From the NCBI GenBank assembly GCA_024278345.1, contig JAJRTK010000047.1:1-5830 (forward strand): DNA of 5,830 nt. The letters are read 5' to 3'. The translations under genes were made by a program, and so were the position numbers. The notes under the pieces were generated by a model. That model was not told where the DNA came from and did not search any database. It saw nothing but the letters and a program-made list of their open reading frames with translations. Below, in pieces: positions 1,274-4,814 of this stretch. Origin of the DNA: a bacterium. Lineage in GTDB: Bacteria; CSSED10-310; JAJRTK01. How positions within the stretch are numbered: position 1 is the first letter of the stretch; every line of letters starts with the position of its first letter.

Positions 1274-1467
1274 GCGGTGAATCTTGCGGGCCGATGGTCT
1301 GTATTTCCGGGCCGAGTCTATGGTAACTTTGGGTTGCGTTCCGCTCCCATCACTCGCATCCGCTCCCGCTGCTCGCCTTTTCATGCCTGGCACTACCGGT
1401 TTTCTGATGTTCAAGGCAGATTGCGCGGGAAGCCGGACGGCCCCGGGGGCAATCTCAATTGTCAACC

Positions 1468-1473
1468 AGAAGG
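1468..1473 (+). promoter_or_regulatory. Probable ribosome binding site for the TPR protein
   Basis: AGAAGG lies 9 nt before ATG 1483. A second purine-rich run (CGGAG, 1476-1480) is only 2 nt from that ATG and too close to act. This favours ATG 1483 over the in-frame TTG at 1459, which would be read through both runs. ATG 1513 gives a more typical signal-peptide length but has no good site before it. Confidence 0.5.
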
Positions 1474-1482
1474 TGCGGAGCA

Positions 1483-3627
1483 ATGATTCGATTGGTCCAC
1501 AAGATCGCCGTCATGCTGAGTCCCACGGGTAAGCTTCTTCGATGTTTTTGCCCGTGGAGTGTCGTGGGACTTCTTTGGATTCCCGCCATCACCGTTGCCG
1601 CTCCGTCTGTTCGGGCGCTCCTCGATGCGGGGCTTCCAGCTCAGGCTCTCACAGCTTTACCGACGCTTGGGGATCAGGGGATACAACCTCAGTCTCTGCT
1701 GTTTCTTGCACGGGCATTTGCGGCGACCGGTGATCACACATTGGCAGAAACCGCCTACGCACGGTTCCTTGGAGCGGCCGACACATTGACCACGGGCGCC
1801 GATTGTCCCCCGGGAGAGCTTGTCTCGGAGGCTCAACGTGGAACCGGAGAAAAGCTTCGCTACCGGGTCCGCGTTGACTATCGCGTGGGTGGGGAAACAG
1901 ATGGCAGGATCACCCGACTCCTGGGGAGTTGGGTCCTCGAAGTGACCTTGAAGGGCATCGACCAGAAGGGAGCTATCGCCAGATACCGGATCGAGTCCCT
2001 CCGCGCGGCAAGTCGAAAAGGCTCGCTCCGGCCTCCCACGCTGCCCCGATCCCAGAAACCGATCATCGAAGTTTCCAGGTTCGGTTTGCTGGAACCGGCT
2101 TCCAGATCCCTGGGTTCGAACGAAACCGCGGCGGTCTGGAACCTCGTCCTCCGGAGCCTTTTCCCTCCAAGTTTGCCCCCCGGCCTCACGGGGCCAGTGG
2201 AGATCCCCTGGCTTTGGCGGGAAGAGGGGGACTCCCTCCAGGGCTGGCTCTGCCCAGGCGCCGGAGGAAACCAGAGCTGGAAGGGATCGGTGAGCTCCCC
2301 CCGCCGATCCGTGGAAGCGAATTTGATCTTGACCTACATAGGGGGCGAGAATCTGGGGATTCTCCAAGCAATAAAGGCTGAGTTCCGGGACTCCGGGACC
2401 GATCCCGCTGCTGGGAATTCCACTACCGTAGGCGTGACCCTCCAGGCCACATTGCTTCGCCACATTCCCGGCCCGGCAGGGAGCACCGAACAGGCGCCTC
2501 CCGCACCCCTTTCCGCTGCATCGCAAAGAGCTTCAAACGGCGACGGGACCTCACCGGTCCAGACCTCTCCCAAAGACGGAGTCGTGGCCATCTACACCGG
2601 CGGATCGCCTGGGGGGATCGCCCAGGAAACCACGGAAAACTCCTCCTTGGCAAGCGTCGATTCTGGCTCTTCGCCGGGAGGCGTCGTCAGACAAAAAGCT
2701 GACGGCGCTACTCTGGTGACCGTTCGTGCCAATTCACGGATTGTCTTGACGGAACATGGTGCAGCTCGTGCTGATGACTGGCCGGCGGCACGCCCGGAAT
2801 CAACTCCGCTCCCGTCGAGGGGAAGCTCTCCCGACGCCTCCTTCGCGCCAAGCGCCAGTTTGCCGGAGCCCTTGGCATCCGGCGCATCCTCCGCGACACT
2901 CACCTATCCGGGAAGACCATCCAGGGCGTCAGCTTTGCCGGCACCTCCGGCATCCAGTGCATCCTCTGCCATATCCACCTATCCGGGACGGCCATCTGGG
3001 ACGCCGGTATCATCTTCGCTGAGTCCCGAGTTCCCTTCTCCATCAGAGCCGTGGCCTCAGCCCGGAGAAGAAGCAAGACCTGGGATTTCGCCGGTTTCTG
3101 GCGATTCCGGACATGCGGCGGAGAGTTCTAGCGATACCGGTTCCCTGGTCGCCCCGGCTTCGGGGACACAACCTTTACCGGAAACCTCGGCGACGGGTCA
3201 CCCCGCCCGGCGTCTTCTGGAGGAACGCCGTTTCCACGAGGCTCTCCGGTTTCTCAACGATGAGATCCGCCAAGGTCCTTCCCCCGCTACCTATCTCCTT
3301 CTGGCCAAGACCTACCTCATGCTGGAAAGGGACGAGCGAGCAGGGCTCATCTTATCCAAAAAAGCGATTGCGCGACACCCCACCGCCGAGGCCCATGGTA
3401 TTGCCGGGCAGTTTTGCCACCGATTGCGCCTGTACGATCAGGCCCTGGAACACTTGAACCGGGCGAAACCCTTTCTTTCAGAGCAGGAAACCTTCGTTCT
3501 GGGAGACACCCTGCTGCGAGTGGGCCGTTCCCAGGAGGGACGTCAGATCCTGCGAAACCTCCTGGCAACAGGCCCATCGGAGAGAGTCGCCAGCGAAGTC
3601 CGCGAAGCCCTGGAGCGAAGCGAGTAA
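1483..3627 (+). CDS. Exported TPR-repeat protein with long Pro/Ser/Ala-rich linker
   Basis: This 714-residue protein matches no named family that I recognise. It begins with a long signal-peptide-like segment: basic residues up to Arg20, then a hydrophobic stretch at about 22-39 ending in TVAA. Residues 41-95 form one or two TPR-like helix pairs. Residues 100-327 look like a beta-rich domain (GEKLRYRVRVDYRV, then GSWVLEVTLKGID). This part holds the only two mature cysteines I noted before the linker, Cys108 and Cys257, which could pair as a disulfide. Residues 328-572 are a low-complexity linker rich in Pro, Ser, Ala and Gly, with a 22-residue and a 25-residue tandem duplication. Residues 573-714 are four or so TPR-like units (RRLLEERRFHEALRFLNDEI, LYDQALEHLNRAKPFL). 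It probably acts outside the cytoplasmic membrane as a binding or scaffold protein. The gap of 209 bp from the ureohydrolase suggests separate transcription. Confidence 0.85.
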   Translation: MIRLVHKIAVMLSPTGKLLRCFCPWSVVGLLWIPAITVAAPSVRALLDAGLPAQALTALPTLGDQGIQPQSLLFLARAFAATGDHTLAETAYARFLGAADTLTTGADCPPGELVSEAQRGTGEKLRYRVRVDYRVGGETDGRITRLLGSWVLEVTLKGIDQKGAIARYRIESLRAASRKGSLRPPTLPRSQKPIIEVSRFGLLEPASRSLGSNETAAVWNLVLRSLFPPSLPPGLTGPVEIPWLWREEGDSLQGWLCPGAGGNQSWKGSVSSPRRSVEANLILTYIGGENLGILQAIKAEFRDSGTDPAAGNSTTVGVTLQATLLRHIPGPAGSTEQAPPAPLSAASQRASNGDGTSPVQTSPKDGVVAIYTGGSPGGIAQETTENSSLASVDSGSSPGGVVRQKADGATLVTVRANSRIVLTEHGAARADDWPAARPESTPLPSRGSSPDASFAPSASLPEPLASGASSATLTYPGRPSRASALPAPPASSASSAISTYPGRPSGTPVSSSLSPEFPSPSEPWPQPGEEARPGISPVSGDSGHAAESSSDTGSLVAPASGTQPLPETSATGHPARRLLEERRFHEALRFLNDEIRQGPSPATYLLLAKTYLMLERDERAGLILSKKAIARHPTAEAHGIAGQFCHRLRLYDQALEHLNRAKPFLSEQETFVLGDTLLRVGRSQEGRQILRNLLATGPSERVASEVREALERSE
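2599..2730 (+). repeat. Diverged 22-residue tandem duplication in the linker
   Basis: Residues 373-394 and 395-416 align without gaps over 22 positions. Both open with G-x-S-P-G-G, and Leu and Val match at positions 17 and 20 of the unit; most other differences are conservative. The DNA copies (2599-2664 and 2665-2730) have diverged strongly, so this is an old duplication seen mainly at protein level. Confidence 0.55.
2860..3009 (+). repeat. 25-residue (75-bp) tandem duplication in the linker
   Basis: Two adjacent 75-bp units (2860-2934 and 2935-3009) encode residues 460-484 and 485-509. Both follow the pattern L-P-x-P-x-A-S-x-A-S-S-A, then T-Y-P-G-R-P-S. The DNA is also clearly similar, most strongly over CACCTATCCGGGA (2901-2913 and 2976-2988). 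This is a younger duplication than the 22-residue one upstream. The Tyr-Pro-Gly-Arg-Pro core is the conserved part. Confidence 0.85.
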
Positions 3628-3633
3628 GTTTTC

Positions 3634-3671
3634 AGCAGGAGATGCGTCGCTCATCGGTGCCGCCTCCTGTT
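3634..3671. terminator. Possible bidirectional terminator hairpin between convergent genes
   Basis: AGCAGGAG (3634-3641) can pair with CTCCTGTT (3664-3671) in an 8-bp stem containing one G-T pair. The loop is 22 nt and could pair further (GCG at 3644-3646 with CGC at 3661-3663). It lies just after the TPR gene and reaches the end of the extended minus-strand frame, the expected place for a shared terminator. Only a short T-run follows on the plus strand, so the case is weak. Confidence 0.35.
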
Positions 3672-3785
3672 TCATGGGAAGTCGTTCTTTCCTTTCCGTT
3701 CCTCCTCGAACTTCCGGGCTTCGGCGTGAATCGCCTGCTTGTGGGCACGGTAGACCAACGGAAGGACGATGATCATGGCGACGCC
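3672..3785 (-). pseudogene. Separated C-terminal part of the zinc-ribbon membrane protein
   Basis: In the same frame as the zinc-ribbon gene, directly after its TAG, 37 sense codons run to a TGA at 3672-3674. They begin GVAMIIVLPLVYRAHKQAIH and continue as a charged tail rich in Glu, Lys and Arg. The first part completes the hydrophobic segment cut by the TAG. The rest reads as a positively charged cytoplasmic helix, as expected after a last membrane segment. This composition is hard to explain as random sequence after a true stop. It may be a nonsense-mutation remnant, a readthrough extension, or the product of a sequencing error at the TAG. An ATG at 3776-3774 could allow restart as a 34-residue peptide, but no clear ribosome site precedes it. 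Confidence 0.7.
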
Positions 3786-4094
3786 CTACGGACCCAGTAG
3801 GATTGCCAGCGCTACCGCCACCGCCATGAAGAGAGGGAACCTCACAAAATAGGCGATTCCCCAGGCTGTGAATCCGATGAGAGCCTTGGTGACCGGGTGC
3901 TCTCGATTGCCAACGATCCGCTTCAACTCATCGATGGAAAGCTTTCCTGTTTTTGCCTTGATCTCTCGGAGCTTTTCCTTCAAAGTGCTCAGCAGATCAT
4001 CCCCGATTTCGACGCGGAGACGACATTCCGGGCATGTGTAGATTCGCCCTTCCCTGTGGAGGGCACGGTTGCAATCCGGGCACTTGATTCTCAC
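3786..4094 (-). CDS. Small zinc-ribbon membrane protein, cut short by TAG
   Basis: The start is GTG at 4094, supported by AAGGGAG seven nt upstream. The 102-residue product opens with a zinc ribbon of two CxxC pairs, CPDC (Cys5, Cys8) and CPEC (Cys21, Cys24), likely binding one zinc ion. A charged helical stretch follows at about 30-66 (LLSTLKEKLREIKAKTGKLS). Then come hydrophobic segments at about 70-84 (ALIGFTAWGIAYFV) and from about 87 (LFMAVAVALAILLGP). The TAG falls inside the second segment, so the membrane hairpin is left incomplete, and the same frame continues to 3672. Without the stop the protein would be 140 residues with a cytoplasmic charged tail. The function is unknown; ribbon-plus-membrane proteins of this size are common hypothetical proteins. 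It points toward the TPR gene and is divergent from the next gene. Confidence 0.8.
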   Translation of the reverse strand: MRIKCPDCNRALHREGRIYTCPECRLRVEIGDDLLSTLKEKLREIKAKTGKLSIDELKRIVGNREHPVTKALIGFTAWGIAYFVRFPLFMAVAVALAILLGP

Positions 4095-4148: not shown

Positions 4149-4814
4149 ATGAAGATTGATTTTTCAACAACAGACTGGCCTCTCTACGTGGTCATGGTCG
4201 TCATCAGCTTTGGGATCCATTTGACGATTCTTGTCACTTTGGCGTTCCTGCCCACGGGAGGTGGCGCTCGGGTCTTGGAAGCCGAGCTGGTGGATGCGCT
4301 TCCCGGATCCAGACGGGGCCTTTCCCTCTCCGTGGAGACCTTGCTCCAAACCTGGAAAAGCCATCTTGCGGACCGCTATGACAGGATGAAGCGGGAGCTA
4401 GCCAAGAAGGCCGACACCATCCAGGAAGACAAGGCTCCGGGGATGGAGGAAAACTGGACCGCGGAGAACACCCCGGCCAAGCTCCGGTACTACGCAAGGT
4501 TGGTGGGCACGGATCTCGAGGCACGGTTGAAGGAGTCCGCCACACGATCCGGGCGGTTTGACATCGTCATTCGCCTCAAGACTGACGCCTCCACCCTCTT
4601 CGACGATCTAGCTCTCGTGAGCCACTTGAGCGGAATCGCGACCCGCTTCAGCCGATACAAGACTTCAAAGCTCAAAGTTGAAGTCCTGGAACCGGACCAG
4701 ACGCGAGCCGGGTCTTTCGAGATTTCCACCGAATCCGCTAGAAGGCTGGCAACGGGCAAGAAACCCCTCCGGGAGATTTTCGAAGAGGGTGTGGCCTCCG
4801 CTCTGCCTGAGTGA
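4149..4814 (+). CDS. Single-pass membrane protein of unknown function
   Basis: I do not recognise this 221-residue protein. Residues 11-35 form one strongly hydrophobic helix (PLYVVMVVISFGIHLTILVT) without a signal cleavage site, so it is probably anchored by its N-terminus. By charge the short N-terminal part is more acidic than basic, which makes orientation uncertain. Residues 60-125 are charged and helical, possibly a coiled coil (YDRMKRELAKKADTIQEDK). Residues 135-180 look like alternating strands and helices (FDIVIRLKTDASTLFDDLAL). The layout of a short N-terminal anchor and a folded C-terminal domain recalls TonB-like or division-associated proteins, but no diagnostic motif supports either. 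The ribosome site is weak (AGG at 4139-4141). The stop is 12 bp from the end of the convergent lipoprotein gene. Confidence 0.8.
   Translation: MKIDFSTTDWPLYVVMVVISFGIHLTILVTLAFLPTGGGARVLEAELVDALPGSRRGLSLSVETLLQTWKSHLADRYDRMKRELAKKADTIQEDKAPGMEENWTAENTPAKLRYYARLVGTDLEARLKESATRSGRFDIVIRLKTDASTLFDDLALVSHLSGIATRFSRYKTSKLKVEVLEPDQTRAGSFEISTESARRLATGKKPLREIFEEGVASALPE

Follow-up and report, generated by a model that had tools for sequence, protein, structure and literature searches.

An in-frame TAG, probably a nonsense mutation, interrupts a bacterial zinc-ribbon gene that is coding-like on both sides

Overview

The gene that we have analysed, from an environmental bacterium, encodes a zinc-ribbon protein with a hydrophobic C-terminal part and is interrupted, some three quarters along its length, by an in-frame TAG, after which the same frame continues for 37 codons that look like coding DNA. 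The likeliest origin of the interruption is an ordinary and recent mutation to a stop, or else a single wrong base in the assembly, given that the organism uses TAG as a normal stop, and we regard a real nonsense mutation of the ordinary kind, truncating the gene of a zinc-ribbon membrane protein, as the probable explanation. The sequence-only reading had offered a nonsense mutation, a sequencing error, programmed readthrough and suppression in this organism side by side; the first two fit the combination of coding-like sequence on both sides and an ordinary stop codon, while the last two have lost ground, as is described below.

The interrupted frame and its surroundings

The window, i.e. the whole stretch of DNA analysed, is an entire contig of 5830 bases (C514) from a 6.06-Mb draft genome of 550 contigs that is about 88% complete. 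By direct reading and in the list of open reading frames (ORFs), the minus-strand frame starts with GTG at 4094-4092, runs for 102 codons to the TAG at 3788-3786, proceeds for 37 sense codons and closes with TGA at 3674-3672. The features of the locus are the following:

3789..4094, minus strand: open part of the gene, with a GTG start and 102 codons ending in ...FMAVAVALAILLGP; zinc ribbon, helical linker and hydrophobic segment to LAILLGP (ORF list)
3786..3788, minus strand: in-frame TAG stop codon, in the context CCG TAG GGC (direct reading)
3675..3785, minus strand: in-frame, coding-like continuation of 37 codons, GVAMIIVLPLVYRAHKQAIHAEARKFEEERKGKNDFP; hydrophobic GVAMIIVLPLVY, then a charged tail (codon score, model helices)
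3672..3674, minus strand: TGA at which the continuation closes; the converging TPR gene ends about 45 bases away
1459..3627, plus strand: converging neighbour, a TPR-repeat protein of 722 aa (ORF list; Pfam TPR_16, E 7.5e-10)
4149..4814, plus strand: divergent neighbour, a protein of 221 aa that has a hydrophobic segment at its N-terminus and no family match (ORF list)

The GTG start is preceded, at seven bases, by the Shine-Dalgarno-like AAGGGAG, which is a good ribosome site. The gene might alternatively be split, with translation restarting at the ATG that is located four codons past the TAG and yielding a second product of 34 residues; the weak, ribosome-site-like AGGG that lies in TAGGGCGTCGCCATG, about seven bases before this ATG, speaks for such a restart, but the site is weak, the hydrophobic part of such a product would be reduced to about nine residues ahead of the charged tail, and supporting conservation is absent, and we give this arrangement scarcely any credence. 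The tryptic peptides predicted for the continuation include, for example, those of the GVAMIIVLPLVYR region and QAIHAEAR.

Codon content of the continuation

Our scoring of the continuation is based on a codon model trained on 300 long ORFs, with the continuations of 437 predicted genes, from 686 kb sampled from the same genome, as controls. The 37 codons that follow the TAG score 15.6 (0.42 bits per codon); the 437 control continuations, scored over the 37 codons at their beginning, all remain below this value (maximum 14.4; averages -1.1 to -1.8, with a mean of about -1.6 for all of them and a standard deviation of about 5.6), and this holds both for the controls that overlap other genes and for those that do not. 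Base shuffling of the segment gave 5292 stop-free sequences, and likewise none of them attains 15.6. With the frame re-read and the score above all of these controls and shuffles, the earlier description of a gene interrupted by an in-frame TAG and coding-like on both sides is borne out. The openness of the run is unremarkable in this genome: at least 37 open codons follow the stop in 223 of the 437 predicted genes, with about half of the genes staying open over this length for each stop type; it is the codon content that stands out. On the opposite strand, the frame that covers this stretch has a fairly good score as well (12.9); antisense frames of coding DNA often score well.

These figures bear on the possibility that the protein truly ends at 102 residues, the later frame being either a chance open run or the relic of a longer ancestor that was lost long ago. 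The frequency of 37-codon open runs past a stop (223/437) and the score of the opposite-strand frame are compatible with such a short protein, as is the fact that no orthologue shows the tail to be conserved; against it stand the codon score of the continuation, above that of every control, the preserved pattern of hydrophobic and then charged residues, and the similar extension of the paralogue that is described below. On balance, a genuinely short protein appears quite unlikely.

A wrong consensus base would give the same appearance as a mutation. The TAG might be due to one wrong base in the consensus or assembly, or to a minor-strain variant that the assembler chose, in which case the gene would be intact, with about 140 codons; the location of the gene on a 5.8-kb contig of a draft genome in 550 contigs is in keeping with this, and so is the coding-like sequence on both sides, without signs of decay or frameshift. 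The site, however, lies in the middle of the contig and outside any long homopolymer, no other gene interrupted in this manner occurs among the 437 predicted genes sampled, and assembled consensus sequences rarely contain isolated substitution errors. We rate a consensus error as unlikely, albeit the foremost of the alternatives to a real nonsense mutation.

TAG as a stop codon in this genome

TAG is an ordinary stop in this genome. It terminates 86 of the 300 long ORFs and 121 of the 437 predicted genes (28%), and the 37 codons that follow TAG-ended genes have a mean score of -1.43, being no more coding-like than those after TGA or TAA. Release factor RF1 is intact (491.7 bits, cut-off 423). 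Among 48 tRNA matches none has a CUA anticodon, an absence that is not absolute in a genome that is about 88% complete, and the matches to the pyrrolysyl-tRNA synthetase PylS are only far below the cut-off, as they are in most control genomes. TAG recoding and dedicated suppression have been rejected on these grounds; the proposal of suppression in this organism is contradicted by them, and the search for a TAG-reading tRNA that the sequence-only reading had recommended has turned up none. The gene shares with those of TAG-recoded and pyrrolysine-using organisms a TAG that lies in frame inside a coding-like frame, and differs from them in its genomic setting: RF1 is intact, neither a CUA tRNA nor a PylS above cut-off has been found, and TAG ends more than a quarter of the genes. 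For the annotation of this lineage, it is useful to know that TAG serves as an ordinary stop.

As a side observation, one of the 48 tRNA matches, a poor one, is located on contig C257 (L055 573-645, minus strand), for which ARAGORN prints two anticodon letters only; it is possibly a tRNA pseudogene.

Readthrough of the TAG, programmed or merely tolerated, would place a long form with a complete hairpin beside the 102-residue form. The coding-like sequence on both sides and the continuation without visible decay would be expected of such a gene; on the other side, no suppressor tRNA or PylS has been found, no orthologue is known that retains a stop at this position, and the RNA that surrounds the stop is less stably folded than shuffled versions of itself (z +1.65). 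An Rfam search of the window returned no match, and with the fold weaker than that of shuffles, structure-driven programmed readthrough is not supported. Readthrough in general strikes us as very unlikely, and even less should be expected of a TAG that is kept by selection and usefully read through, yielding both a protein of 102 residues with a single hydrophobic helix and one of 140 residues with the complete hairpin while TAG elsewhere remains a stop. If readthrough did occur, a stop codon would here control the topology of a membrane protein, an uncommon situation in bacteria; no finding of ours specifically suggests it.

Zinc ribbon and predicted membrane part

The zinc ribbon (CPDC...CPEC) occupies residues 5-24 and is followed by a helical linker and the hydrophobic C-terminal part. 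Several Pfam zinc-ribbon models match the protein, all below their cut-offs, and a Foldseek search aligned about 28 residues with zinc-ribbon structures, at an rmsd of about 1 A, no match having E < 0.001. The top Foldseek match is to YfgJ (PF07191), at 1.2 A and with an E-value that is not significant; with the YfgJ-type double zinc ribbon proteins (PF07191, Zn_ribbon_6) the window protein shares the CPxC...CPxC ribbon, over about 28 residues, whereas its score against this family is 16.1 bits, with the Pfam cut-off at 25, and the membrane part is not in common.

We have modelled the protein as it would be read through the TAG, with the paralogue as the sole companion sequence; the model is of moderate confidence (mean pLDDT 66) and consists of the zinc ribbon and helices at residues 67-82, 86-100, 102-117 and 119-136. 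In this model (mean pLDDT 66), the TAG maps to a G-P-X-G turn between helices 86-100 and 102-117, so that the continuation, first hydrophobic and then charged, would complete a helix pair. The C-terminal pair of hydrophobic helices, with its charged tail, is probably a membrane anchor. The earlier statement that the stop splits one membrane segment thus stands in part: a hydrophobic stretch that spans residues about 86-116 does run across the stop, but the model (pLDDT 66) places the stop at the turn between two helices.

The run-in to the hydrophobic part has, by eye, a likeness to DUF1232 proteins (YkvA-like, PF06803), i.e. the pattern G-D-P..P...K....AY before a short hydrophobic hairpin. 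Kinship of the hydrophobic part with DUF1232 is not supported, the profile-profile probability from hhalign being 0.0-0.1 percent; a search of the organism's own genome with the PF06803 profile gave no match. In three relatives from the same phylum (L118, L119 and L120), we have observed a common DUF1232 protein in which the motif SP[IL]DLLPE...GP.GY.DDIA replaces the usual DLIPDFIPVLG.

A distant paralogue and the length of the parent gene

The sole relative that we have found is a distant, intact paralogue in the same genome (C255:8854-9291; L008 1438-1875), which encodes 147 residues from its probable ATG, without an in-frame stop. It shares the zinc ribbon, followed by two hydrophobic segments (LLMLVAFFASLFG and LGLVVGCAVAICMILY) and a charged tail. 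BLASTP aligns the two proteins with 29% identity over 77 columns (E 1e-7, for this single comparison), and their full-length local alignment has a z of 10.6, equalled by none of 2000 shuffles; judged from these alignments, the two proteins are clearly homologous across the zinc ribbon and the linker. Past the position of the TAG the architecture is alike, while the sequence similarity of this last part alone is not significant, shuffles being as good in 380 of 2000 cases (local alignment) and in 69 of 2000 (global alignment). The paralogue's own predicted fold is too poor to be used (mean pLDDT 54). Close to the paralogue are two tRNA-Met genes and one gene that, by eye, is glycogen-phosphorylase-like.

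Searches of 60 relatives, the phylum sample (8 species, 8 genomes), GTDB contigs, viral contigs, plasmids and PDB sequences brought up no orthologue. A two-sequence profile, run over the phylum and 386 genomes, yielded no orthologue either, nor did a scan of GTDB contigs with the paralogue as the query; the GTDB and viral scans are seeded by short back-translated peptides of the query, so that with a single protein only close relatives are visible. Of the weak hits of this profile, the four that were read (L136, L138, L140 and L141) proved to be unrelated zinc ribbons or chance frames. A search for a syntenic relative of the divergent 221-aa neighbour gene and a literature search found nothing. 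The family is an orphan, known here only from the window gene and its paralogue.

The comparison of homologue lengths called for by the sequence-only reading has consequently been made with one distant paralogue only: this protein extends across the position of the stop into another hydrophobic segment and a charged tail, although the part beyond the TAG, taken alone, shows no significant similarity to the window protein. The parent gene likely had about 140 codons, since the continuation scores as coding and the paralogue has a similar, uninterrupted layout. Against a truncation it may be said that the 8 phylum genomes, the 386 genomes and the GTDB scan have provided no orthologue by which the ancestral length could be set. 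The gene resembles the nonsense-type pseudogenes of bacteria in its single stop, in its one frame throughout, in the coding-like sequence on both sides and in that TAG is a normal stop; such pseudogenes are usually proven by an intact orthologue, whereas here there is a distant paralogue only.

Proposed course of the truncation

Under the preferred reading, a nonsense mutation, the ancestral product would have been a zinc-ribbon protein with a length of about 140 residues, for which the C-terminal pair of hydrophobic helices, with its charged tail, probably served as the membrane anchor. A single-base nonsense mutation, which we infer to be probably recent, would then have created the TAG at 3788-3786, where RF1 would terminate translation to give a product of 102 residues whose membrane part is incomplete and breaks off in a hydrophobic run. 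Lacking the second hydrophobic helix and the tail, the truncated product would probably be impaired or degraded, while the 37 codons past the TAG would be the remainder of the gene, which would have had no time yet to decay. The case in itself matters little, since it concerns one interrupted gene, of an orphan family, in a draft genome.

Other features of the contig

Two further features of the window are mentioned here for completeness. On the minus strand, a 65-codon ORF is located at 3478-3675, with its ATG overlapping the TGA at 3674-3672 (ATGA); counted from an inner ATG, which is located eight bases past a perfect AGGAGG, it would have 58 codons. Most of this ORF is antisense to the terminal part of the TPR gene, and it is probably due to chance. 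On the plus strand, an arginase-family gene is located at 173-1273; its nearest family is agmatinase, with a score of 162 bits that is just below the NCBIfam agmatinase cut-off of 174 bits.
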